Positions 5,918 to 28,265 of a DNA stretch of 64,000 bases are shown piece by piece (position 1 is the stretch's first letter; each line of letters begins with the position of its first letter). The notes under the pieces were generated by a model. The model ran no database searches. It was not told where the DNA came from and saw nothing but the letters and a program-made list of their open reading frames with translations. Origin of the DNA: Flagellimonas eckloniae (GTDB lineage Bacteria; Bacteroidota; Bacteroidia; Flavobacteriales; Flavobacteriaceae); contig NZ_LCTZ01000002.1 in assembly GCF_001413955.1 (NCBI RefSeq), forward strand, positions 434,001-498,000, in the 5' to 3' direction. The position numbers were made by a program, and so were the translations under genes.

Positions 5918-6703
5918 ATGAATAATCAATTACTGACGAACAAGAATGCACTTGTTTTTGGTGCTAAGGGAGCTTTAGGGGTGCAAGTATCAAAAGCATT
6001 GAAAATGCAAGGAGCCACTATTTATATGTCTGATATTAATGTAAATGGCATTGCGGAAGAATCAGCATTAGGCCAGGTACGAAAGTTGGATACGCTGGAT
6101 GAAGCTGCCGTTTTGGAATATTTTGACTGGTTTAAAAAGGAGAATGTAAATGTTGATATCGTGATTAATTTAAGTGCTTCAAATCCTGCAGAATATAATC
6201 ATGGAAAACCTGCAATGGAAGTATCCTTGGAACAATTTATGATACCTTTGAAATCTACTACGGCTTGCCAGTTTCTCACGGCTAAAGCTGCTTACTCAAT
6301 TATGTCCAAGCAGGGACAAGGAGTTATTATATTCATCACATCTACCTTAGCTAAGGTAGGTTCCCCTTGGAGTCCTGCTTTAACTGCATCTCATGCAGCT
6401 ACCGAAGGTTTGTTGAAAAGTTTGGCAAATGAGTGGGGGCCAGAAGGTGTAAGGGTAATTGGGGTACGAACAGAGGCAATGCCAGATTCCCCAACAATTG
6501 ATTATACGTTTACCACAATGGGGTTAAATATGGGAATAAGCAGAGATGAAATGCAACAATTCATAGTAGAAAACAAAACTGCGATGAAAAAACTTCCTTC
6601 CACAGAAAATACAGCAAACGTAGTAGTTTTAGCAGCATCTGAATTGGCAAGTTACATGACCGGTACCGTAATAAACCAATCTGTGGGGCACATTTTAGAG
6701 TAG
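5918..6703 (+). CDS. Short-chain dehydrogenase/reductase family protein with altered active site
   Basis: A 261-residue Rossmann protein of the SDR superfamily. The nucleotide loop is FGAKGALG at residues 14-21 in place of the usual TGxxxGxG. The NNAG motif is replaced by NLSAS (84-88). Ser142 of the catalytic set is present (ITST), but the YxxxK positions are Leu155 and His159 (PALTASHAATEG), so the classical proton relay is missing. The C-terminal SYMTGTVINQSVG is typical of enoyl-reductase-like or classical SDRs. It may be a non-catalytic binder or use another mechanism. It is the last gene of the HxlR-linked operon. Confidence 0.85.
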   Translation: MNNQLLTNKNALVFGAKGALGVQVSKALKMQGATIYMSDINVNGIAEESALGQVRKLDTLDEAAVLEYFDWFKKENVNVDIVINLSASNPAEYNHGKPAMEVSLEQFMIPLKSTTACQFLTAKAAYSIMSKQGQGVIIFITSTLAKVGSPWSPALTASHAATEGLLKSLANEWGPEGVRVIGVRTEAMPDSPTIDYTFTTMGLNMGISRDEMQQFIVENKTAMKKLPSTENTANVVVLAASELASYMTGTVINQSVGHILE

Positions 6704-6788
6704 TTGAATAATAGGATGTTTCTTTTGCCAACAAATAAAAATCAAATCAATTTAGTAACTTTGCAGCCTTTAAAATCAGGGGTTTGCC

Positions 6789-8117
6789 ATGAGCAAAAAA
6801 GTTGCTTTTTATACATTAGGTTGCAAGCTTAACTTCTCCGAAACTTCCACTATTGCCAGAAGTTTTACAGGGGAAGGATTTAAACGTGTGGATTTTTCCG
6901 AACATGCAGATATTTATGTGATCAATACCTGTTCTGTTACGGAGAATGCAGATAAGCGCTTTAAGACCATTGTAAAACAGGCACAGAATACCAATCCAGA
7001 GGCGTTTGTAGCGGCCGTAGGTTGTTATGCACAGCTAAAGCCTGAAGAGCTGGCTGCAGTGGATGGTGTGGATTTGGTCTTGGGAGCAACTGAAAAATTT
7101 AAAATCACGGATTACCTCAACGACCTGACTAAAAATGATAGGGGTGAAGTACATTCCTGTGAAATTGAGGATGCGGATTTTTATGTGGGTAGTTATGCCA
7201 TTGGTGAAAGGACAAGAGCCTTTTTAAAGGTTCAGGACGGATGTGATTATAAATGCACCTATTGCACCATTCCTTTGGCGCGAGGCATATCACGAAGTGA
7301 TACTTTAGAAAATGTGCTCAAGAATGCCGCAGAAATTTCTGCTCAAGGCATCAAAGAAATTGTTTTGACGGGAGTAAATATTGGAGATTATGGCAAGGGA
7401 GAGTTTGGAAACAAAAGGCATGAACATACTTTTTTGGACTTGGTGAAAGCCTTGGATAGGGTAGAGGGGATTCACCGGTTACGAATTTCATCCATAGAGC
7501 CCAATCTCTTAAAAAATGAGACCATTGATTTTGTTTCCCAGAGCAATAGCTTTGTCCCGCATTTTCATATTCCGTTACAGAGTGGTAGCGACCATATCCT
7601 AAAATTGATGCGCCGTAGGTATTTATCCAATTTATATGTGGATAGGGTAAACAGGATAAAACAAACTATGCCCCATGCCTGTATAGGGGTGGATGTGATT
7701 GTTGGTTTTCCAGGTGAAACCGATGAGCACTTTCTGGAAACCTATCATTTTCTGAACGAACTGGACATTTCGTATTTACATGTCTTTACGTATTCGGAAA
7801 GGGATAATACTGTGGCAGCTGAGATGGAAAATGTTGTTCCTAAAAGTGTTCGTAGTAAGCGCAGTAAAATGTTACGAGGACTTTCAGCAAAAAAGAGAAG
7901 AGCTTTTTACGAAACTCAAATTGGTACTAAACGAACAGTGCTTTTTGAGGGTGAAAACAAATCGGGCTATATTCATGGCTTCACTGAAAACTACATAAAA
8001 GTAAAGTATCCGTGGAACCCTGAGTTGATAAATACCCTGCACGAAGTGGAGCTTACTGAAATTGATGAAGATGGTTTGGTGCGGATACAGTTTTTGCCAG
8101 CTAAAATCTTGGTATAA
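6789..8117 (+). CDS. mtaB: tRNA threonylcarbamoyladenosine methylthiotransferase MtaB
   Basis: This 442-residue radical-SAM enzyme adds a methylthio group to t6A37 of ANN-decoding tRNAs, making ms2t6A. The N-terminal UPF0004 domain carries Cys12, Cys48 and Cys79 for the auxiliary cluster. The radical-SAM motif CDYKCTYC (Cys152, Cys156, Cys159) binds the second 4Fe-4S cluster, and a C-terminal TRAM domain follows. Length and the GCKLNFSE start fit MtaB rather than MiaB. A TAACTTTG box at 6756-6763 is the likely -7 element. The gene is monocistronic with a hairpin after its stop. Confidence 0.95.
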   Translation: MSKKVAFYTLGCKLNFSETSTIARSFTGEGFKRVDFSEHADIYVINTCSVTENADKRFKTIVKQAQNTNPEAFVAAVGCYAQLKPEELAAVDGVDLVLGATEKFKITDYLNDLTKNDRGEVHSCEIEDADFYVGSYAIGERTRAFLKVQDGCDYKCTYCTIPLARGISRSDTLENVLKNAAEISAQGIKEIVLTGVNIGDYGKGEFGNKRHEHTFLDLVKALDRVEGIHRLRISSIEPNLLKNETIDFVSQSNSFVPHFHIPLQSGSDHILKLMRRRYLSNLYVDRVNRIKQTMPHACIGVDVIVGFPGETDEHFLETYHFLNELDISYLHVFTYSERDNTVAAEMENVVPKSVRSKRSKMLRGLSAKKRRAFYETQIGTKRTVLFEGENKSGYIHGFTENYIKVKYPWNPELINTLHEVELTEIDEDGLVRIQFLPAKILV

Positions 8118-8120
8118 AAA

Positions 8121-8145
8121 AACCTCCCGTATTGAGAGGTTCTTT
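8121..8145 (+). terminator. Hairpin terminator after mtaB
   Basis: The arms aacctc (8121-8126) and gaggtt (8136-8141) form a short stem followed by cttt, between the convergent mtaB and GNAT genes. Confidence 0.55.
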
Positions 8146-8164
8146 ATAATTTGACATCTTGTGG

Positions 8165-8458
8165 TTAGATGCGTATGCCTACCGGAAGCATCTCTTTATA
8201 TTGTCTGTTCTTTCTTAAAAAACCTGCTATATGAGGGCTAGTAGGAACAACTCTTAGATTTTTTTCTTGGATTTCATTCAAAACGGCTTTAATAAAAGTT
8301 TCTTTGAAGCCCTCTTGGGTAATTTCTTCAGGTATTACTAGTTTGGTTAAAAATACCTTACGCTCTTGGGAGGAGTATTCAATTTTAGCTAAATGCCCAT
8401 CAACCTTGGTTTCAAATTGGCGCAAGAAACTATTGTCATTAATTTCCATTTCTGTCAT
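8165..8458 (-). CDS. Small GNAT-like N-acetyltransferase (YjdJ/GTNL type)
   Basis: A 97-residue single-domain protein, the usual size of the minimal GCN5-related acetyltransferase group. The KLVIPEEITQEGFKETFIKAVLNEIQEKNLRVVPTSPHIAGFLRKN stretch (about residues 40-85) shows the acceptor strand, the acetyl-CoA-facing helix and the conserved PxSPxxxxxLRK-like segment of this family. Substrate unknown. The gene has a leader of about 100 nt with an 8-bp hairpin (8488-8506). Confidence 0.75.
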   Translation of the reverse strand: MTEMEINDNSFLRQFETKVDGHLAKIEYSSQERKVFLTKLVIPEEITQEGFKETFIKAVLNEIQEKNLRVVPTSPHIAGFLRKNRQYKEMLPVGIRI

Positions 8459-8487
8459 ATAGTATCGTTTTAAATTAACTCATAAGT

Positions 8488-8506
8488 AATTACCGAAGCG
8501 GTAATT
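8488..8506 (-). repeat. Perfect 8-bp hairpin in the GNAT leader
   Basis: The arms aattaccg (8488-8495) and cggtaatt (8499-8506) are exact inverted copies around a 3-nt loop. They lie about 30 nt upstream of the minus-strand GNAT start codon. They could be an operator or an RNA hairpin; the sequence does not decide. Confidence 0.5.
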
Positions 8507-8616
8507 GTATTCTAGGTTCTAGTTGCACATAAAAATAAGTGGGGCTTTGCGCAAAAGGGACACAAAATTAGTCAAAAAATTGCTAATTTCCTAGCCTAAT
8601 CGATATTAGGTAGGAA

Positions 8617-9294
8617 ATGCCCGATAATAAAATTCATATATACCTTATGCCCGGGATGGCTGCCAATCCTTCCATATTTGATGGTATAAAGCTGGATAGC
8701 AACACCTTTATAATGCATAAATTGGAATGGGTTACCCCTGAAAAGGGAATGACATTTTCTGAATATGCCCAAAAAATGTGCAGTAATCTCTCTCATGAAA
8801 ACCCAGTATTATTGGGAGTATCATTCGGAGGAATGCTAGTACAGGAGATGGCCAAGTATATAAAAACAAAAAAGATAATAGGCGTTTCTTGTGTAAAGAG
8901 CCACACAGAACTGCCAAAAAAAATGCTGTTTGCAAAGTACACCAAAGCACATAAACTACTCCCTACCGGCCTTGTAAACAATGTAGAGCTATTAGCAAAA
9001 TATGCTTTTGGAGAAACAGTGACAAAGCGACTTGAATTGTATGAAAAATACCTTTCCGTTCGGGATAAGCATTATATGGATTGGGCCATAGACAACATTG
9101 TCAACTGGCAACAAAAACATCCTCCAAACAATCTAGTTCATATTCACGGTGAATCGGACCCAGTGTTTCCCATATCGAATATTAAAGGCTGCATCCCAGT
9201 TAAAAATGGTACGCATACCATGATAATACACAGGGCAAGATGGTTTAATGAAAACCTACCTGCAATTATTTTAGAAGAAGGCAGTTCTATATAG
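8617..9294 (+). CDS. Alpha/beta hydrolase
   Basis: A 225-residue cytosolic hydrolase fold. The nucleophile elbow GVSFGGML (about residues 67-74) places the catalytic Ser, the late acid is likely the Asp in GESDPVFP (about 184), and the catalytic His lies in KNGTHTMI (about 200). The family splits esters, amides or related bonds, and the substrate cannot be told. The start ATG at 8617 follows an AT-rich stretch. It is on the plus strand directly before the lytic transglycosylase with a 31-bp gap and may share its transcript. Confidence 0.85.
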   Translation: MPDNKIHIYLMPGMAANPSIFDGIKLDSNTFIMHKLEWVTPEKGMTFSEYAQKMCSNLSHENPVLLGVSFGGMLVQEMAKYIKTKKIIGVSCVKSHTELPKKMLFAKYTKAHKLLPTGLVNNVELLAKYAFGETVTKRLELYEKYLSVRDKHYMDWAIDNIVNWQQKHPPNNLVHIHGESDPVFPISNIKGCIPVKNGTHTMIIHRARWFNENLPAIILEEGSSI

Positions 9295-9325
9295 TATCTT
9301 TATCTAACATTAATATTTGGATAGC

Positions 9326-10282
9326 ATGAAGCACATAAAAAATATCTTGGCAGTAATTGGATTGGTTGTTGTAATAGGAAGTCTTGTCTTTGCCATACAG
9401 GCCGATTCAGCTGCCAAGGAGGAAATAAAGCAAGAGGTTGTGGATAAGAATGTGGCAGATGGCTATCAAATTAGTGCAATTGAAATCCCAAGTGATTTAA
9501 ATTTTGCTGATGAAGCAGTTCCTTTGGAAGATCCAGAAATATTGGAACGTGTAGATCGTGAATTTTTGGTGAACACCTATTGGCAATCCAATGCATTATT
9601 GTTAATGAAGCGAGCCAATAAATATTTCCCTATTATAGAGCCGATTTTGGCAAAAAATGGCATTCCGGATGATTTTAAATATTTGGCCGTAGCTGAAAGC
9701 GGATTGCAAAATGTGGTTTCACCTGCAGGTGCCACAGGATTCTGGCAAATAATGAAAGCCACAGGGAAAGAGTATGGGCTTGAGGTGAATGCCAATGTGG
9801 ATGAACGCTATCACGTGGAAAAGGCAACCCAAGTGGCCTGCGATTACATTAAAAAATGGAAAAACCGTTTCGGCAGTTGGACCTTGACCGCTGCTGCTTA
9901 CAATGCAGGACCCGCAGGCATTCAAAAATATATGGATATCCAAAAGGTTGATGATTACTACGATTTATTATTAGGACAGGAAACAGGACGATATATTTTT
10001 AGGATTATGGCTATAAAAGAAATCATTTCCAATCCGGATAAATATGGTTTTGCTGTTGAAAAAGAAGATTTCTACAACGCAGTGCCCACTTTTTCTGTGG
10101 AAGTGGATACGGCGATTGCAAGTTGGACCGATTTTGCCCATGAATATGAGATTAACTACAAGGTTTTAAAAAGACACAACCCTTGGTTGCGTGAGCCACA
10201 CCTGAACAACAGTTCCCGTAAAAAATATGTTATTGAAATCCCAAACAAAGGATATTATAGAAGTACGAGTGAAGGCAAGTAA
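9326..10282 (+). CDS. Lytic transglycosylase (Slt/MltD-type catalytic domain)
   Basis: The 318-residue product cleaves the MurNAc-GlcNAc bond of peptidoglycan and forms 1,6-anhydroMurNAc. An N-terminal hydrophobic helix (about residues 5-24) exports or anchors it in the periplasm. The SLT domain shows the catalytic Glu in AESGLQNVVSP, then GATGFWQIM and the conserved TAAAYNAGPAGI. No LysM repeats follow, unlike long MltD. ATG at 9326 is preferred to a TTG nine bases upstream, because the TTG lies in an AT-rich promoter-like stretch and ATG directly precedes the signal helix. Confidence 0.9.
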   Translation: MKHIKNILAVIGLVVVIGSLVFAIQADSAAKEEIKQEVVDKNVADGYQISAIEIPSDLNFADEAVPLEDPEILERVDREFLVNTYWQSNALLLMKRANKYFPIIEPILAKNGIPDDFKYLAVAESGLQNVVSPAGATGFWQIMKATGKEYGLEVNANVDERYHVEKATQVACDYIKKWKNRFGSWTLTAAAYNAGPAGIQKYMDIQKVDDYYDLLLGQETGRYIFRIMAIKEIISNPDKYGFAVEKEDFYNAVPTFSVEVDTAIASWTDFAHEYEINYKVLKRHNPWLREPHLNNSSRKKYVIEIPNKGYYRSTSEGK

Positions 10283-10324
10283 GTTTTTTTATCCCAATTT
10301 TGTTTTGGAAATATAATATTTTTA

Positions 10325-10418
10325 GGTTCACGTATCGGTCTCGGCTAATCACTTAAATGGAAATAAAAGTGCACTTTTATTTCCCGTACCAATCATAGCC
10401 ATTGTTAGCAATAGTGCT
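10325..10418. repeat. Imperfect terminal inverted repeat, copy 1 (downstream of DUF1028 gene)
   Basis: On the plus strand this begins ggttcacgtatcggtc and ends gttagcaatagtgct. These ends match, in inverted orientation, the element at 11711-11782 on the other side of the DUF1028 gene (agcattattgctaac and gactgatacgtgaag). The internal parts differ. It contains a perfect palindrome at 10359-10384. Confidence 0.65.
10359..10384. repeat. 26-bp perfect palindrome
   Basis: The half ggaaataaaagtg (10359-10371) is followed at once by its exact reverse complement (10372-10384). It lies between the lytic transglycosylase and DUF1028 stop codons and could act as a bidirectional transcription end or as a cruciform site. 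Confidence 0.75.
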
Positions 10419-10424
10419 TTTCTG

Positions 10425-11660
10425 TTATTTTGCTCTTATACTGTTTAATAAGTTTTCAGCTTCAATATTATCGCTGTCCATTCTCAATGCGGTTTCCAAG
10501 TATTTAATAGCTTTTTCTTGTTCTTTTTCATAAAAATAACTTCTACCAAGTAGGAAGTTCAAATAAGAAGATTCAATTTTCTTCTTAAAAAGTCCTTTTA
10601 TTTCTTTAATTACTTCTAACTCTTGGCCGAGATTACTAAGCATTCCCATAGCAATTTCCCAGTCAGTCACACTAAAAGAATCGGATTGGATTCTTGATTT
10701 CATTTCTGGATTATTACGAAGAAAATAAAACGCAGGAATATTTACTGACCAATTAGGATTTTCGTCAAGTCCTTTTTTTATCCATTTGATTGCTTTTGTT
10801 TCATTTCCCATCGCGATATTCGCACCAGCGATTTTTGAGTACATTCCAGTCCATCCATTCAGCATAGATTCCGCCTCTGTCAATTTTTGTTTAGCCCTTT
10901 CTGAATTTCCTCCACGATGTGCAAAAAGTGCTTGATTTAGACGGATTCTACCATAATGATAGTCCATTAGTGTCTTCAGTTCTTTTATGGGTTCTTTTGA
11001 GTTGTCAACTCTAAGGTCAATTTGATTGTACCATTCGTTATTTGAACCTTTTACGACAACAGCGGCAGATTGCTTACCAGATATTTGTCCACCTGCATTT
11101 TGTCCTGCGATTAAGCTTTTCAAAAGTCGTTCAGCCAATGTTCCTTCCGATTTCTCAAAAGATTTCGACATTTCAGAGAGGACTTCATTTGCAAGTTGGT
11201 TACCAATTACCACATAGTTTCTTCCTAAGATTTGTGCTGCTTTGCCATTCCAGTATTTTAAGGATTTACCTGTAAATGCGAAAACATTACCTTTTGCGTC
11301 AATTCCAGAAATTTGGCGATAATTATTTTCATCATCTTCGTCTTTTGTTTCTACGATTGCCTGCTCAATTGATTTTCCTTCTTTAAGTTTTTCAAGTCCA
11401 TTAACGCCATATTTAGGTTCTGTTTCTGCAATTACCGAAAAAGCACCAACCTCAGGTTCAATGTAAATTGTCGAGTTTCCAACATAAATATTGTTTGTTG
11501 CTACTGCAATTCCCCATTCTTGGGCATCTTCATCATAAGCAAGAATTGAAAAAGTCGAATTAATGTTCTTCTCAGTTAAAAGACTAGGTAAATTTTGTCC
11601 ATAGGTTGCAAAAGCAGAAATGAATAAAATGATTGATAATAGCGTTTTGTGATTTTTCAT
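10425..11660 (-). CDS. Secreted DUF1028 (Ntn-hydrolase-like) protein with TPR tail
   Basis: A 411-residue protein. Residues 1-21 are a signal peptide ending TYGQ. Residues about 35-235 match DUF1028: NSTFSILAYDEDAQEWGIAVATNN, the GKSIEQAI segment, and LIAGQNAGGQISGKQSAAVVV. DUF1028 has an Ntn-hydrolase-like fold and is found alone or fused to peptidoglycan-binding or TPR units. The C-terminal 170 residues hold TPR-like helices (AEKAIKYLETALRMD type). Function is not established. The gene sits alone between related inverted repeats, which suggests it arrived as a unit. AATCAATCAAAAA-type sequence precedes its start. Confidence 0.85.
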   Translation of the reverse strand: MKNHKTLLSIILFISAFATYGQNLPSLLTEKNINSTFSILAYDEDAQEWGIAVATNNIYVGNSTIYIEPEVGAFSVIAETEPKYGVNGLEKLKEGKSIEQAIVETKDEDDENNYRQISGIDAKGNVFAFTGKSLKYWNGKAAQILGRNYVVIGNQLANEVLSEMSKSFEKSEGTLAERLLKSLIAGQNAGGQISGKQSAAVVVKGSNNEWYNQIDLRVDNSKEPIKELKTLMDYHYGRIRLNQALFAHRGGNSERAKQKLTEAESMLNGWTGMYSKIAGANIAMGNETKAIKWIKKGLDENPNWSVNIPAFYFLRNNPEMKSRIQSDSFSVTDWEIAMGMLSNLGQELEVIKEIKGLFKKKIESSYLNFLLGRSYFYEKEQEKAIKYLETALRMDSDNIEAENLLNSIRAK

Positions 11661-11710
11661 TTGATTGATTGTTTTTTGATTGGTTAATATTGATGAATGA
11701 TAATTTTTTT

Positions 11711-11782
11711 AGCATTATTGCTAACGTTAAGCTGAAAATCGTCTATAATGATTATTTAACGACTGATACGTGAAGTTCGGGA
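11711..11782. repeat. Imperfect terminal inverted repeat, copy 2 (upstream of DUF1028 gene)
   Basis: Read on the minus strand it runs from cccgaacttcacgtatcagt to gttagcaataatgct. The same outer motif (cgaacttcacgtat) and inner motif (cttaacgttggcaataa-like) recur upstream of the genes at 49363 and 51096. It faces the copy at 10325-10418. Confidence 0.65.
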
Positions 11783-11886
11783 ATTTAATCGTAAAAATTT
11801 AGGTTAAATCAAAGGGTGTGTCCTTCAATTTTATTGATAATATAGATGAACAAATATAATACGGATGATGTTAGTAACTTAAAGAC

Positions 11887-12402
11887 TTATATCTTCTTCA
11901 TCTGCTGTTGCATCATTTTTATTTGATCCGTGAGCATATTGTTTTTGTCCAGTTTCTTGGCTTCCTGTAACAATTGGGTAGCCTCACGCTTTCTGCGCTT
12001 TTGCATGGAGATGCCTGCAAGGCTTAATTTGGCCATGGCCAAATCATAATCCATGGTCAATCCCAATTTCAAGGCTTTTTTAAAATATTTTTCCGCTTGG
12101 GTGAGGTTTTTTTGGGAGAAAATAATTCCGTGCAGGTAATTATAGTATCCCTGTTGCTTTTTTATTAAAGCAGATTCAGGGTTCTTGATTTTGCTCAACC
12201 ACTTTTGGGTTCCCTCCATATCCTGTTTGCGCATACGAAGGAAGGCCATTAAAATAAGCTCATTTCTAAAATACAGAAAAATAAAAACCGTTGAAAGCAA
12301 AATCAGGGCTATACCGTTGCCAATGTACCCCTCAATAAATTGATAAATGCCGTAAGAGATGATAAGGCCAGCGATGATGAGTTTTATATTTTTGTTGAAC
12401 AT
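11887..12402 (-). CDS. Small membrane-anchored TPR-like protein
   Basis: This 171-residue protein has two N-terminal membrane helices (about residues 7-22 and 28-50), resembling a DUF2892-like hairpin, followed by a soluble helical part. AEKYFKKALKLGLTMDYDLAMAKLSLAGI and EATQLLQEAKKLD are TPR-like helices, so it probably scaffolds a protein contact at the inner membrane face. No enzymatic motif is seen. It is divergent from rpmH and has no obvious operon partner. Confidence 0.75.
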   Translation of the reverse strand: MFNKNIKLIIAGLIISYGIYQFIEGYIGNGIALILLSTVFIFLYFRNELILMAFLRMRKQDMEGTQKWLSKIKNPESALIKKQQGYYNYLHGIIFSQKNLTQAEKYFKKALKLGLTMDYDLAMAKLSLAGISMQKRRKREATQLLQEAKKLDKNNMLTDQIKMMQQQMKKI

Positions 12403-23889: not shown

Positions 23890-24342
23890 TTAGGATAAAA
23901 ACTCATTTAATCGTTCAAAAACAGAACCCCAGCCGTTGTAGAAGCCCATTTGTTCTTGTTGTTTGCAATATTCCTCAGTTTCATGAACGCAATTAAAGGT
24001 AAAATGGGTTTTTTCGCCATCTGCCTTAAAAATCGCCTGTATTTCAACACCTTCAGTCATGGGTTTAAAGTCCGCCGTTGAAATAATTTTTTCATGCTCC
24101 ACAATCTCAATATAGCGGCCTTCAGAAATAAATTCATTGCCATCTGGCATCCGCATGGAGTACTTCCAATTTCCACCAACTTTAAAATCATGTTCCAAAA
24201 CTTTGGTCTCCATTCCTTTTGGCCCCCACCATTGCGCAATATGCTCTGATTGTGTCCAGGCTTCCCAAACCAATGCAATGGGAGCATCAAAAGTACGTTC
24301 AAGGGTTAATGTTCTGTTTTTAGGGTTGTTTACTTCACTCAT
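23890..24342 (-). CDS. SRPBCC (AHSA1-type) domain protein
   Basis: A 150-residue START-like protein. LERTFDAPIALVWEAWTQSEHIAQWWGPKG (about residues 14-43) is the AHSA1 signature, and GNWKYSMRMPDGNEFISEGRY and the final helix GWGSVFERLNEFL complete the fold. In ArsR-SRPBCC pairs it is the target of the regulator, and its role (ligand binding or chaperone-like activity) is not known. It overlaps the ArsR gene by 8 bp. A decayed relative of its 3' end lies 2 kb away at 21755. Confidence 0.9.
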   Translation of the reverse strand: MSEVNNPKNRTLTLERTFDAPIALVWEAWTQSEHIAQWWGPKGMETKVLEHDFKVGGNWKYSMRMPDGNEFISEGRYIEIVEHEKIISTADFKPMTEGVEIQAIFKADGEKTHFTFNCVHETEEYCKQQEQMGFYNGWGSVFERLNEFLS

Positions 24343-24664
24343 TTTTTTTGTTTTTGTTCTGTAATTGGGTTAGGTAATTTTCAAAAGAATCCAGCTTTTC
24401 TTCCCATAGATTTTTATATTGATCAATCCATAAAAAAGCTGGGATAAGGTTTTTGGGTTGAATAATACAGTAGCGTTCCCTTCCTTTTTGATTAAAGGTG
24501 ACTATACCACATTCTTCCAGAATTTTTAAATGCTTCGAAATGGCTGGTCGGCTAACATCAAATTTTTCAGCAACAGTGTTTACTGTAAGTGCTTCTTTTG
24601 ATAGAAGCTGAATGATATCCCTTCGTACGGGATCGGCAATGGCCTGAAAAACATCTCTTCGCAT
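24335..24664 (-). CDS. ArsR family transcriptional regulator
   Basis: A 109-residue winged-helix repressor. RRDVFQAIADPVRRDIIQLL and VNTVAEKFDVSRPAISKHLKILEECGIV (about residues 2-58) give the HTH. Cys metal-binding motifs typical of ArsR/SmtB metal sensors are absent from the recognition helix, as in the ArsR-SRPBCC type. It is first in a two-gene operon with the SRPBCC gene and probably represses its own promoter through two dyads (24673-24713). Confidence 0.92.
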   Translation of the reverse strand: MRRDVFQAIADPVRRDIIQLLSKEALTVNTVAEKFDVSRPAISKHLKILEECGIVTFNQKGRERYCIIQPKNLIPAFLWIDQYKNLWEEKLDSFENYLTQLQNKNKKNE

Positions 24665-24781: not shown

Positions 24782-24812
24782 TTGGTATTGATTCCGCGAC
24801 CTTCTACCTTTG
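24782..24812 (+). promoter_or_regulatory. Promoter of the MbnP-like locus
   Basis: A TTG (24782-24784), a 20-nt spacer and TACCTTTG (24805-24812) match the Bacteroidota promoter. The TTG and the GTG inside this element are therefore unlikely to be start codons of the first gene. Confidence 0.6.
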
Positions 24813-24826
24813 TGAAAATTCAACAA

Positions 24827-25234
24827 TTGAATCGCACAATAGCCATATTACTTCTAATATGTTTCCACGCACAACCAATGATGATTGCTTCTGTATGGAT
24901 AGACTATTGTGTGAACAATGATTATATAAAGGAAGTTCTCTGTATCAATAAAGAGCGGCCTAAATTGCAATGTGATGGTAAGTGTTACTTGGCCAAGCAA
25001 TTAAAGAAGCAATCACAACAAAAGGAATCAAAGGAAAAAGGAGTTGTTATTGAACAAAGCATCACTCCCGTATTTTTTGTTGTGATTCAAGATTTCGTCT
25101 TCAGAAAAAAAGAATCTTTATCAACTGATAAAAACCACTACTATTTCAACCACTATCAATTACTTTTTGATAGTGAAAAGGATAGACCTCCAATAATTTC
25201 TTCCGAGTTCTCCAAATATTTGGCTTACTGCTAA
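24827..25234 (+). CDS. Small Cys-containing exported protein of the MbnP locus
   Basis: About 135 residues if TTG at 24827 is used. Upstream in-frame TTG/GTG codons fall inside the promoter, and no ATG precedes the hydrophobic helix IAILLLICFHAQPMMIAS. The mature part has four cysteines in YCVNN, KEVLC, KLQC and DGKCYLAKQLKK. The CINKERP-x4-CDGKCYL pattern is shared, from memory, by a family common in Bacteroidota near metal-handling genes. No function is known. As the first gene of the MbnP locus, the cysteines suggest metal binding or redox work in the periplasm. The start codon is uncertain. Confidence 0.65.
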   Translation: MNRTIAILLLICFHAQPMMIASVWIDYCVNNDYIKEVLCINKERPKLQCDGKCYLAKQLKKQSQQKESKEKGVVIEQSITPVFFVVIQDFVFRKKESLSTDKNHYYFNHYQLLFDSEKDRPPIISSEFSKYLAYC

Positions 25235-25319
25235 ATAACAATTTAAAAATCTATAAAAATAATAATAACGCGAAGCTTTGGGCTAGAGCTGGCCCTTACT
25301 CGCATATATAAATATTCTA

Positions 25320-26114
25320 ATGAAATTATTTAAATTTTTCATAGCGATACTGCTATGCAATACTATTATGTCTTGTTCTAATGACGACGATATGGAGTCG
25401 CTTGATGGACAATTTGGGAACCTAGTCATAAAATTTGATAATGGAGTTGAAGACCAAGATTTCATTTTTGGTGTAAACTATAGCAAATCTGCTAATGAGT
25501 CCTATCAACTGGAAACACTAAAATATATTATCAGCAATATTGAATTAACTGATGCAGACGGTACAACTTTCATGTATCCAACAGATGATAATGTCTTTAT
25601 TGTGAACGAAGCCGATGCAAACAATGCTGGAGAAATCTGGATTACCTTAGAAGGCATTCCTGCGGCAGATTATACCAAAATATCCTTTGGTGTTGGCATA
25701 GATCAAGAACGTTATGGGCTAGGTGCAGAAGGCCAAGGCGATTTTTTGCAAACGGCACAGGATGAAGAAATGTTATGGTCATGGGCCACAGGTTTTCGCT
25801 TTATACGATTAGACGGGGTCTATTCAGATAATTCAGTAACCGATGAGGCACTCAATATACATATGGGTAGTGTAGGGACCAGTCTTGACAATTACCGTGA
25901 AGTAAGCTTGGATTTACCCAATACGGTATTGGTAAGGGAAATGGCTGAACCAGAAGTACATATCAAAGCAGATATCTCATTGGTTTTTGATGGGCAAACA
26001 TCAGTTACCTTTTCAGAAGGTTATAGTCAAGTTCATACGGATGAGACTACTACTCCGATTATTGCCGATAATGTTATGGGAATGTTCGAGGTTCATCACG
26101 TGCACAATAATTAG
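25320..26114 (+). CDS. MbnP-like metal-binding lipoprotein
   Basis: A 264-residue lipoprotein (lipobox TIMSC, Cys19). The body matches the MbnP family: GNLVIKFDN, KYIISNIELTDADG, the MLWSWATGFRFIRLDG segment with Trp153 and Trp155, and His residues at 181, 214 and in the C-terminal EVHHVHN (259, 260, 262). In methanobactin-linked MbnP, a Trp is oxidised to kynurenine by the di-heme enzyme MbnH, and this allows copper binding. The adjacent di-heme gene fits that pairing. No methanobactin precursor or its enzymes are seen, so the module works in another context. Confidence 0.85.
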   Translation: MKLFKFFIAILLCNTIMSCSNDDDMESLDGQFGNLVIKFDNGVEDQDFIFGVNYSKSANESYQLETLKYIISNIELTDADGTTFMYPTDDNVFIVNEADANNAGEIWITLEGIPAADYTKISFGVGIDQERYGLGAEGQGDFLQTAQDEEMLWSWATGFRFIRLDGVYSDNSVTDEALNIHMGSVGTSLDNYREVSLDLPNTVLVREMAEPEVHIKADISLVFDGQTSVTFSEGYSQVHTDETTTPIIADNVMGMFEVHHVHNN

Positions 26115-26125
26115 ATACATAAACC

Positions 26126-26164
26126 TTGTGCCGCAGTATTTACTGCGGCACAACATTCTTTTTA
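26126..26164 (+). terminator. Strong hairpin between the MbnP-like and MbnH-like genes
   Basis: The arms ttgtgccgcagta (26126-26138) and tactgcggcacaa (26141-26153) are perfect inverted copies, 13 bp each, followed by ctttttatt. It ends five bases before the next start codon. It could cap the MbnP transcript or attenuate read-through to the di-heme gene. Confidence 0.7.
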
Positions 26165-26168
26165 TTCA

Positions 26169-27218
26169 ATGGACAAAAAAATCGTATTGGTTTTTGTGTG
26201 CACTATTTTTTTCTGGAGTTGTAACAATGACAGTCCTGAAAATGAATATGTACCTATAAACCTAACAGTGAAACATCCGGAAAATTTTCCGGAGATTAAA
26301 TACACTCTCAGCAATAATCCTGTTACCGAGCAGGGTTTTGAATTAGGTAAAAAATTGTTCTATGATGGCAAGCTTTCAGCAAATAACAGTATACCCTGTG
26401 CATTTTGCCATGAGCAAGCATTTGCTTTTACCCATCACGGTCATACGTTGAGTCATGGTGTAAATGGTGGAATTGGGTTTAGGAACTCGCAGCCTATACA
26501 AAACTTGGCATATTTTTCTGAGTTTATGTGGGACGGTGCTGCATCACATTTGGATTTACAACCAATCATTCCCATTACCAGTGATTTGGAAATGGGGGAG
26601 ACGCTATCCAGCATAGTTGATAAACTTAAAGCGGATAGTTACTATCAAGAACAATTTCCACTAGCGTTTGATGATGGCGAGATTAACAGTGAAAATATAC
26701 TCAAAGCACTTTCACAATTCATGCTCATGATGGTTTCCTCAAATTCAAAGTATGATAAATATGTAAGAAAAGAAGAAGGCATAGAATTCACGGACACTGA
26801 ACTTGAAGGGCAAAGTATCTTTAAAGCCAAGTGTGCATCATGCCATGCAACAGATTTATTTACGGACCAGAGCTATCGGAACACAGGTTTGCCCATAAAC
26901 CCAAAATTGGATGATAAAGGCAGATTTAATGTTTTAGAAAACCCAGATGACCTCTACAAATTTAAAGTGCCAAGTTTACGAAATGTGGAAAAAAGCTTTC
27001 CATATATGCACGATGGTCGTTTTGCTTCCTTGGAAGCGGTTCTGGATTTTTATAACGATGGTATGGTTGACAATGGAAATGTTGATGAAAGTTTACTACG
27101 AAGTGACTCAAGTTTTGGCATTTCACTTACCGATGAAGAAAAAGGACAATTGATAGCCTTTTTAAAAACGCTTACAGATGATGAATTTTTAAACGATACA
27201 CGTTTTGCAGAATTTTAA
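26169..27218 (+). CDS. MbnH-like di-heme cytochrome c peroxidase/MauG family protein
   Basis: A 349-residue lipoprotein (Cys18 in FFWSCNN). Two heme c motifs are CAFCH (77-81) and CASCH (222-226). PYMHDGRF (278-285) is the conserved MauG/CcpA loop near the second heme, and GGIGFRNSQPIQNLAYFSEFMWDGA is the family signature. Members use H2O2 or oxidised heme to modify a partner or reduce peroxide. Directly after an MbnP-like gene, the best reading is an MbnH that oxidises the MbnP Trp. A plain peroxidase role remains possible. Confidence 0.87.
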   Translation: MDKKIVLVFVCTIFFWSCNNDSPENEYVPINLTVKHPENFPEIKYTLSNNPVTEQGFELGKKLFYDGKLSANNSIPCAFCHEQAFAFTHHGHTLSHGVNGGIGFRNSQPIQNLAYFSEFMWDGAASHLDLQPIIPITSDLEMGETLSSIVDKLKADSYYQEQFPLAFDDGEINSENILKALSQFMLMMVSSNSKYDKYVRKEEGIEFTDTELEGQSIFKAKCASCHATDLFTDQSYRNTGLPINPKLDDKGRFNVLENPDDLYKFKVPSLRNVEKSFPYMHDGRFASLEAVLDFYNDGMVDNGNVDESLLRSDSSFGISLTDEEKGQLIAFLKTLTDDEFLNDTRFAEF

Positions 27219-28194
27219 ACAATACATATTTTCACTTTTACTGATTCTTTTTGCTCAGATAGCTTTTGCAAAAGTCATAAACCATTGTGATACATGGCAT
27301 GAAAAAAGCATAAAACCCTACTGTGATTTATGCGGATGTGCTACTAATAATGGAAATTTTGGGTTTGGAACACTGTCCAACAGCAATTTTATTGGTTTTC
27401 GCTATATCCACCAGAGTTTTGAGTCTAGAGATGGGATTTTTAGTGATTCACCCAGTAGTAATGAGTACTTGAACACCTATCAACTTTGGACGCAAGTACC
27501 AGTATTCCAAAGCTTTTATATAACGGCCAGTTTGCCCTATCAAGATTTGAAAAGAACCTTTGAGAGTGGTTCGGCAACTGAATCACTCAAAGGTATAGGT
27601 GATGCAAATGTGATGGGCTGGTATAAATTACAGTTTTTAAAAAAGCAGAATAATGACTCTATACCTTACCCGGTAGGGCGTCCCCTTTCCAGACATTCCA
27701 TCCAGATTGGTATAGGAGCTAAACTGCCAACCGGAGAATTTGAGGAACGGCTAACCAATCGAGTAAATCCTGGTTTTCAGGTAGGGACTGGTAGTTTTGA
27801 CGGAATTTTTTCATTGGGATATAATTATGGAGGGGACAAAATTGGCTTCAATGCACTTTTTACCTATTACCAAAAAGGGGAAAATAAAAATGAATACCGT
27901 TTTGGCAATCAATGGAGCTATGCTGGAAACCTGTACTATAAATTGGCTTTAAATACATTTTCATTGATGCCTTTTGTTGGGATTTCTGGAGATGATTATG
28001 ATACTATTAAGCAGTTTGGGGAGACGCTTCAAGATACTGATGGTCAGATTTTAAACGGAACATTTGGCGCGGAATGCACAATTGGTCAATTCATACTTGG
28101 TGCAAATGCATCGTTGCCAATTTCCCAGGATTTATTTGGAGGAAACGTGCAGGCTAATGAACGCTTGTCTGTATATGTGAATTTTTCCTTGTGA
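27205..28194 (+). CDS. Outer-membrane beta-barrel (transporter-like) protein with Cys-rich N-terminus
   Basis: The product has 329 residues. TTG at 27205 is the only start before the signal peptide (YIFSLLLILFAQIAFA), and it overlaps the di-heme gene by 14 bp, so coupling is likely. The mature start carries HCDTWHEK and CDLCGCATN, with five cysteines in all, which could bind copper or iron. The rest has alternating strands ending in VYVNFSL, as in a beta-barrel of the phenol-degradation MetA-like/transporter type. It probably forms the outer-membrane arm of the module. Confidence 0.72.
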   Translation: MQNFKQYIFSLLLILFAQIAFAKVINHCDTWHEKSIKPYCDLCGCATNNGNFGFGTLSNSNFIGFRYIHQSFESRDGIFSDSPSSNEYLNTYQLWTQVPVFQSFYITASLPYQDLKRTFESGSATESLKGIGDANVMGWYKLQFLKKQNNDSIPYPVGRPLSRHSIQIGIGAKLPTGEFEERLTNRVNPGFQVGTGSFDGIFSLGYNYGGDKIGFNALFTYYQKGENKNEYRFGNQWSYAGNLYYKLALNTFSLMPFVGISGDDYDTIKQFGETLQDTDGQILNGTFGAECTIGQFILGANASLPISQDLFGGNVQANERLSVYVNFSL

Positions 28195-28223: not shown

Positions 28224-28265
28224 AAAAGAGGTGTTTATAATGATTTTTGTAAACACCTCTTTTCA
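28224..28265. terminator. Bidirectional terminator after the MbnP locus
   Basis: The arms aaaagaggtgttta (28224-28237) and taaacacctctttt (28250-28263) are exact inverted copies. The A and T ends allow termination from both convergent genes. Confidence 0.85.

Follow-up and report, generated by a model that had tools for sequence, protein, structure and literature searches.

Copper proteins encoded beside a di-heme enzyme are known from methanotrophs. In the MopE/SACCP and CorA/CorB systems the copper protein lies beside a di-heme peroxidase-like gene, the copper site of MopE and CorA contains a kynurenine made from Trp, and copper represses expression (passages of PMC3621798 and PMC3912023). 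MbnP/MbnH pairs outside methanobactin producers have been in print since 2013 (a passage of PMC3621798), and the occurrence of such a pair outside methanobactin loci is itself not new. Among small exported leader proteins, CutF has a CxxxC motif, is Pro-rich at its end and detects copper while it is being exported (parts of PMC9973294), and CruR (DUF2946) has a repertoire of TonB receptors, PepSY_TM, OprC types, Sco and MbnPH (PMC9426467). At the outer membrane, the copper importer OprC has a CxxxM-HxM site, and passage of ionic copper over the Gram-negative outer membrane is described as poorly known (parts of PMC8610252). Here we analyse a locus in Flagellimonas eckloniae, within a window of 64,000 nucleotides (contig NZ_LCTZ01000002.1, positions 434,001 to 498,000; coordinates below are those of the window), in which four genes run together on the + strand, as the initial annotation had said:

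24827..25234, + strand, small Cys protein (leader gene), 135 aa; start placed from homologues, motif positions and the family-wide motif layout
25320..26114, + strand, MbnP lipoprotein; PF20243 match of 151 bits and alignment, with M151, W153, W155, H181 and a C-terminal HHVH tail
26169..27218, + strand, MbnH-type di-heme enzyme; CCP_MauG match of 172.5 bits, CxxCH at residues 77 and 222, Tyr295
27205..28194, + strand, outer-membrane beta-barrel-like protein with CDLCGC at residues 40-45, past the signal peptide; barrel nature predicted from sequence

The four genes form a conserved cassette; among the open-licence papers listed in our literature searches, we noticed none that deals with this cassette, the CDxCGC barrel or the MbnP tail. 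The genes, their motifs and conservation, the gene order and the exchange of partner genes are read directly, and we propose, with a probability of roughly 0.55, that the locus is a copper-acquisition operon under nascent-peptide control, in which MbnP would be matured at a Trp and would hand copper over to the barrel; copper sensing, arrest, kynurenine formation, copper binding, hand-over and the direction of transport are the parts that we infer.

Conservation was examined in a sample of 395 genomes of the phylum, 97 of which contain PF20243 (96 above its cut-off), and 117 stretches were fetched, meant to cover the PF20243 matches listed. Together with the window these yield 101 adjacent same-strand MbnP-MbnH pairs in 99 loci, with the MbnP set taken from blast clusters. 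The barrel is near 39 of the 101 pairs and the leader gene near 48, with both near 37, such that 37 of the 39 pairs with a barrel nearby also have the leader gene; the barrel-holding pairs are spread over 12 families. In a whole-genome search the barrel model reaches at least 200 bits in 42 genomes, all of which also match PF20243, and 41 of these 42 matches lie inside MbnP stretches (coordinates read by eye), although the model was built from MbnP loci, which biases the count in their favour; at scores under about 110 bits the model matches many unrelated-looking barrels. A scan of GTDB genomes is the cleaner test of co-occurrence because barrel peptides alone served as the query, and all four genes are present in 73 of the best 80 of the 307 loci found. 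The seven exceptions comprise four contigs that end within 2.2 kb upstream of the barrel, two loci in which no leader was found, and one with a sub-threshold MbnH. The proposal that MbnP/MbnH stand alone as a module, accompanied by two conserved partner genes, is therefore supported, and the outcome named in the initial annotation as refuting it, a lack of conserved co-occurrence, did not arise. As to the further statement that methanobactin genes are missing, a search of the genome of the window for the MbnB family (PF05114) gave no match, which agrees with it; the other mbn genes were outside this search. An iterated MbnP model was tried as the source of MbnPs and was not used, as it drifted (137 matches); the labels that it gave in loci L161 and L165 are uncounted, because the Pfam search places the PF20243 match of genome G158 elsewhere and lists none for G208.

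The tryptophans and the C-terminal His cluster noted earlier in MbnP are present, the protein ending in MFEVHHVHNN, and its PF20243 match is well above the cut-off of 27 bits. An alignment of 40 MbnPs shows no variation at W153, W155 or H181 and has M151 in at least 90% of the sequences, no other Met or His being as strongly conserved as M151 and H181; the WxW motif is present in 95 of 105 MbnPs. A search of the Protein Data Bank (PDB) with the single MbnP sequence gave nothing real, and a profile search joins the family to the solved structure 7l6g (E 2.3e-7). We take 7l6g, and 6e1c below, to be MbnP and MbnH of methanobactin loci, from M. trichosporium. The copper site of that MbnP reportedly (2021) comprises a His, a Met and a kynurenine formed from the first Trp, and the conservation of M151 and H181 fits such a site. 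The window pair resembles that of M. trichosporium in the pairing of the genes, the WxW motif, the Met two residues ahead of the first Trp, the conserved His and a di-heme enzyme with a Tyr axial column. It differs from methanobactin-locus pairs in its neighbours, in scoring below the NCBIfam cut-offs, and in the lack of an MbnB match in the genome. The four-Cys motif in the molecule name of 7l6g is not found in the window MbnP, whose only cysteines (Cys13 and Cys19) are both in the signal and lipobox region, and the window protein has the HxH tail in addition. The MopE/CorA site is Kyn-x-His plus a second His, whereas here we find Met-x-Trp-x-Trp plus His, a comparison made at the level of motifs. 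A surface location of MbnP is a suggestion that stays at that strength since acidic residues past the lipobox Cys are as common in MbnH (21 of 31) as in MbnP of loci with a CxxCGC (CGC) barrel (22 of 30), and the lipobox pattern made some wrong picks; known surface-export signals of lipoproteins are covered in parts of PMC5080379.

The di-heme protein contains both reported features, two CxxCH motifs and PYMHDGRF, and its CCP_MauG score far exceeds the cut-off of 25.6 bits. An ordinary hydrogen-peroxide-reducing cytochrome c peroxidase, working beside an unmodified MbnP, would also match the many bacterial di-heme peroxidases that this protein matches, and would account for E141, which is kept in 122 of 122 MbnH-like proteins. 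However, the closest PDB chain is that of the di-heme enzyme 6e1c (E 2.7e-44), and Tyr295 aligns with Met258 of the peroxidase 1iqc, which we take to be the axial Met ligand of the second heme in ordinary bacterial cytochrome c peroxidases. This column is Tyr in 111 of the 122 proteins, Phe in 11 and Met in none; two CxxCH hemes and a Tyr at this column are features of MauG, and the window enzyme shares them. With the same-strand adjacency to MbnP in 101 pairs as well, a plain peroxidase appears quite improbable, and a MauG-like enzyme acting on MbnP is the reading we prefer. A second CCP_MauG protein, a 632-aa open frame, is encoded elsewhere in the window's own genome (L201), away from any MbnP.

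The barrel matches no Pfam family up to E 1 and no NCBIfam family, and most of its nearest relatives in the protein collection are annotated as hypothetical protein or transporter, the closest named one (97% identity) being from an uncultured Allomuricauda. C40 and C43 are invariant in 40 of 40 aligned relatives. The form of the barrel is matched by the MbnP tail: HxH is present in all 31 pairs with a CxxCGC barrel and in none of the 70 others, namely 8 pairs with a CDFC(N/S) barrel, 15 with a TonB receptor and 47 with neither. One genome (G324) holds both kinds of cassette (L078 and L091), and only the barrel kind has the tail. When the last 22 MbnP residues are left out of the tree, the CGC label changes six times, at least four of these on supported branches, and in all four independent pairs the tail goes with the label (p 0.125). 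A profile search of the PDB with the barrel gave only FapF (E 0.065), which was not used as a relative. Conceivably the barrel serves another substrate, such as iron or an organic compound, and is a mere passenger in the operon. Four of 16 further stretches hold barrel and leader without MbnP/MbnH, showing that the two halves of the cassette are separable, and distant relatives match the Pfam family 'MetA-pathway of phenol degradation', the case in point being a protein encoded at L172. We regard this as unlikely, given the invariant Cys pair, the link of the HxH tail to the CxxCGC barrel, and the concentration of strong barrel matches in MbnP stretches (with the bias of that model noted above). 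In the strongest form of the copper-acquisition reading, CDxCGC barrels would be a new TonB-independent copper channel of the outer membrane, to which a surface lipoprotein matured by kynurenine formation would dock with its HxH tail, and an arrest peptide that senses copper, from a Bacteroidota family outside DUF2946, would switch the operon; taken as a whole this is tentative, and we would not expect all of it to hold. The L172 locus (6501-11987), in the same genome as the window, has a second leader-family gene followed by a barrel weakly matching Phenol_MetA_deg, with two M16 peptidase genes upstream; an assignment of this leader copy as preceding a TonB receptor was dropped, its neighbours being the M16 peptidases and the barrel. 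In five loci (L075, L083, L089, L138 and L143) MbnP/MbnH are followed, in place of the barrel, by proteins of cluster c17 with a stretch that we presume to be YHYH-like.

The initial annotation placed the pair in another, little-described metal pathway, but the neighbours point to copper and the spread of the pair had been in print since 2013; the genomic context gives good support for copper handling by the operon. A TonB receptor with CxxxMDP replaces the barrel near 15 of the 101 pairs, and all 17 receptors with CxxxMDP in MbnP stretches also have HxM at the matching distance (our own reading). These are the two motifs of the OprC/NosA copper receptors, and a receptor from Flavobacteriaceae with a CxxxM-type motif has already been proposed for copper uptake (a passage of PMC11213822). 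Two of the CxxxM-HxM receptors score 76 and 82 bits against TIGR01778 ('TonB-dependent copper receptor'), far below its cut-off of 472. Of the 117 stretches, 10 contain SCO1 and 5 contain a YHS protein. The window differs from OprC/NosA loci in having a smaller protein with CDLCGC at the partner's place, and one protein query for a CxxxM-HxM TonB receptor found no match in the window's genome, which by itself shows little. Because the alternative partner is a TonB receptor with the OprC motifs, import is suggested. The operon could instead confer copper tolerance, with MbnP and the barrel sequestering or exporting excess copper and the leader turning on expression with copper, in the manner of CutF. 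Expression under the control of CutF rises with copper, and the oxidase that CutF serves detoxifies the metal (parts of PMC9973294); its CxxxC layout is closer to the leader family than is the CxxC of CruR. We consider this rather unlikely, as the alternative partner carries the motifs of an importer and no efflux gene stands out among the annotated neighbour clusters, which cover part of the neighbours; uptake is the likelier direction. Longer copper-like clusters, with leader, YHS, SCO1, superoxide dismutase, a second leader and MbnP-MbnH-barrel, are seen in L082, L093, L094, L098 and L099.

The small Cys protein had been taken as a partner protein, which is probably wrong, as the layout of its motifs, its position and its neighbours are better suited to a leader open reading frame (ORF). 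The window protein has a hydrophobic, export signal-like N-terminus (read by eye), cysteines at 39, 49 and 53 (C-x9-C-x-G-x-C), and DRPP near the C-terminus, with the Pro-Pro (PP) at residues 121-122 of 135. It matches no Pfam family up to E 10 and no NCBIfam family, and Pfam searches with 43 members of its family gave scattered weak matches only, the most frequent of them in 4 members. In each of the 89 leader proteins examined, a PP follows the Cys motif (C-x8..12-C-x-G-x-C, or a near variant of it) with a spacing of 61-70 (mode 66), and PP is 2-4 residues from the stop in 82 of these and in 74 of 77 in the GTDB set. A terminal PP is seen in 59 of 63 members of the leader family compared with 12 of 696 other small genes, although the 63 are one family and hence not independent. 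On the upstream side of 88 leader genes, the neighbour is on the opposite strand or at least 100 nt away in 59 cases. The family is found in 161 of the 395 genomes, and its neighbours resemble the CruR repertoire, since at 20 leader loci outside MbnP stretches a TonB-receptor-like gene lies within two genes downstream in 17 and PepSY_TM accompanies 7. From the CxxxC motif, the C-terminal PP, the narrow spacing, the long gap to the next gene and the neighbours, we conclude that the first gene is probably a copper-sensing leader ORF of the CutF/CruR kind.

The likeness to CruR and CutF extends to a small, probably exported protein with a Cys motif, C-terminal PP, conserved spacing and a gap to the next gene, and to a place in copper-related operons that include MbnPH-like genes. 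The window leader agrees with the rules for CutF-like proteins in parts of PMC9973294 (<150 aa, CxxxC, PP in the last 15 residues) in its length of 135 aa, its C49-x-x-x-C53 and its PP at 121-122, and the CutF-like proteins of Bacteroidota that this source lists in bulk may include the leader family. It differs from CruR in that PF11162 (DUF2946) does not match the window protein and is not among the 25 families listed for the 43 members; in place of CXXC and RAPP there are CxGxC with a further Cys nine residues ahead and DRPP (mostly [HRKV]PP in the family), and the Cys-PP spacing is about 66 instead of 45. PF11162 is present in 11 of the 395 genomes (5 above cut-off), and two matches, one above and one below cut-off, are directly upstream of MbnP in L129 and L131. 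In four loci including these two, the leader's place is taken by a small protein cluster ending in RGPP (three) or RDPP (one), and DUF2946-like leaders occupy this position in some other families of the phylum. A 2025 paper reports copper-related RAPP/RGPP leaders in many lineages and, in the part concerned, names Bacteroidota among the exceptions (PMC12992588). A working periplasmic copper carrier or chaperone would likewise be expected to have three invariant Cys and an export signal-like N-terminus, and CutF was at first taken as a copper-binding partner of its oxidase (a passage of PMC8456105). Such a role is nonetheless doubtful, with little conserved besides the Cys and the stop-adjacent PP, a narrow Cys-PP spacing across variable sequence, a long gap to the next gene, and DUF2946-like genes at the same place in other loci; leader control is likelier than a structural role.

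Several observations weigh against the copper-acquisition operon as proposed. The window leader and its nearest relative (L202) have 13 residues past the PP, unlike most relatives; 29 of the 88 leader genes have a same-strand gene less than 100 nt upstream, so that first place in an operon is not general; and strong folding of the spacer (z < -2) is only weakly in excess, in 29 of 69 leader spacers compared with 38 of 150 controls. The family also precedes siderophore-like TonB receptors and may therefore not be specific for copper. The best NCBIfam models, TIGR04052 for MbnP (45.3 bits, cut-off 140) and TIGR04039 (MbnH) for the di-heme protein (229.3 bits, cut-off 362.85), are matched below their cut-offs. 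WxW is absent from 10 of the 105 MbnPs, most of which still have an MbnH neighbour, none of the 10 being in barrel loci. Neither outer-membrane partner is near 47 of the 101 pairs, the link between tail and barrel, complete in counts, rests on about four independent events, and hand-over from MbnP is not the sole role of the barrel given the four stretches without MbnP/MbnH.

Other features of the locus are as follows:

25235..25319, + strand, leader-mbnP spacer of 85 nt, folding with z -1.7; the median gap in the leader family is 113 nt
26126..26153, + strand, hairpin of 12 bp in the mbnP-mbnH spacer with T-rich sequence after it, a possible attenuator or mRNA-stability element
28224..28263, + strand, terminator-like hairpin past the last gene; 5 such sites in the region compared with 2.1 expected from shuffles

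The initial annotation gave the module as 24782..28194, which holds for the four genes, although a start of the first at TTG 24827 is more likely than 24782 because six of ten printed leader homologues begin MNRxIAI, without the extra N-terminus. The barrel gene overlaps the end of the MbnH gene by 14 nt (27205 and 27218). Median intergenic distances are 1 nt for MbnP-MbnH and 7 nt for MbnH-barrel, compared with 113 nt from the leader to the next gene (81 cases). In 15 other loci, too, the mbnP-mbnH spacer resembles a single strong hairpin, and strong single hairpins of unrelated sequence are seen here in many flavobacterial loci (both by eye); the hairpin may keep MbnP output above that of MbnH. 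A candidate TAnnTTTG promoter is seen at 24805, and a divergent pair encoding an ArsR-type regulator and an AHSA1-domain protein (23890-24664) is directly upstream of the operon.

A plausible mechanism is that the leader senses copper as a nascent peptide, in the way of CutF and CruR: with the ribosome at the C-terminal PP, copper would bind to the Cys site, and this binding would set expression of the genes past the spacer, which for an import operon would most likely be off at plentiful copper. MbnH, as a MauG-like di-heme enzyme, would oxidise W153, the first Trp of WxW, to kynurenine, which together with M151 and H181 would form a Cu(I) site in MbnP. MbnP, an outer-membrane and possibly surface lipoprotein, may then use its HxH tail to deliver copper to the CDLCGC site of the barrel, and the barrel would let the metal cross the outer membrane. 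The locus brings together several elements open to testing: a copper site that is likely to contain a protein-derived kynurenine, a family of barrels without a name but bearing a probable metal motif, a tail on MbnP that tracks the type of barrel, and a leader-peptide family in a phylum without copper-related RAPP/RGPP leaders in the relevant part of a recent survey (PMC12992588).

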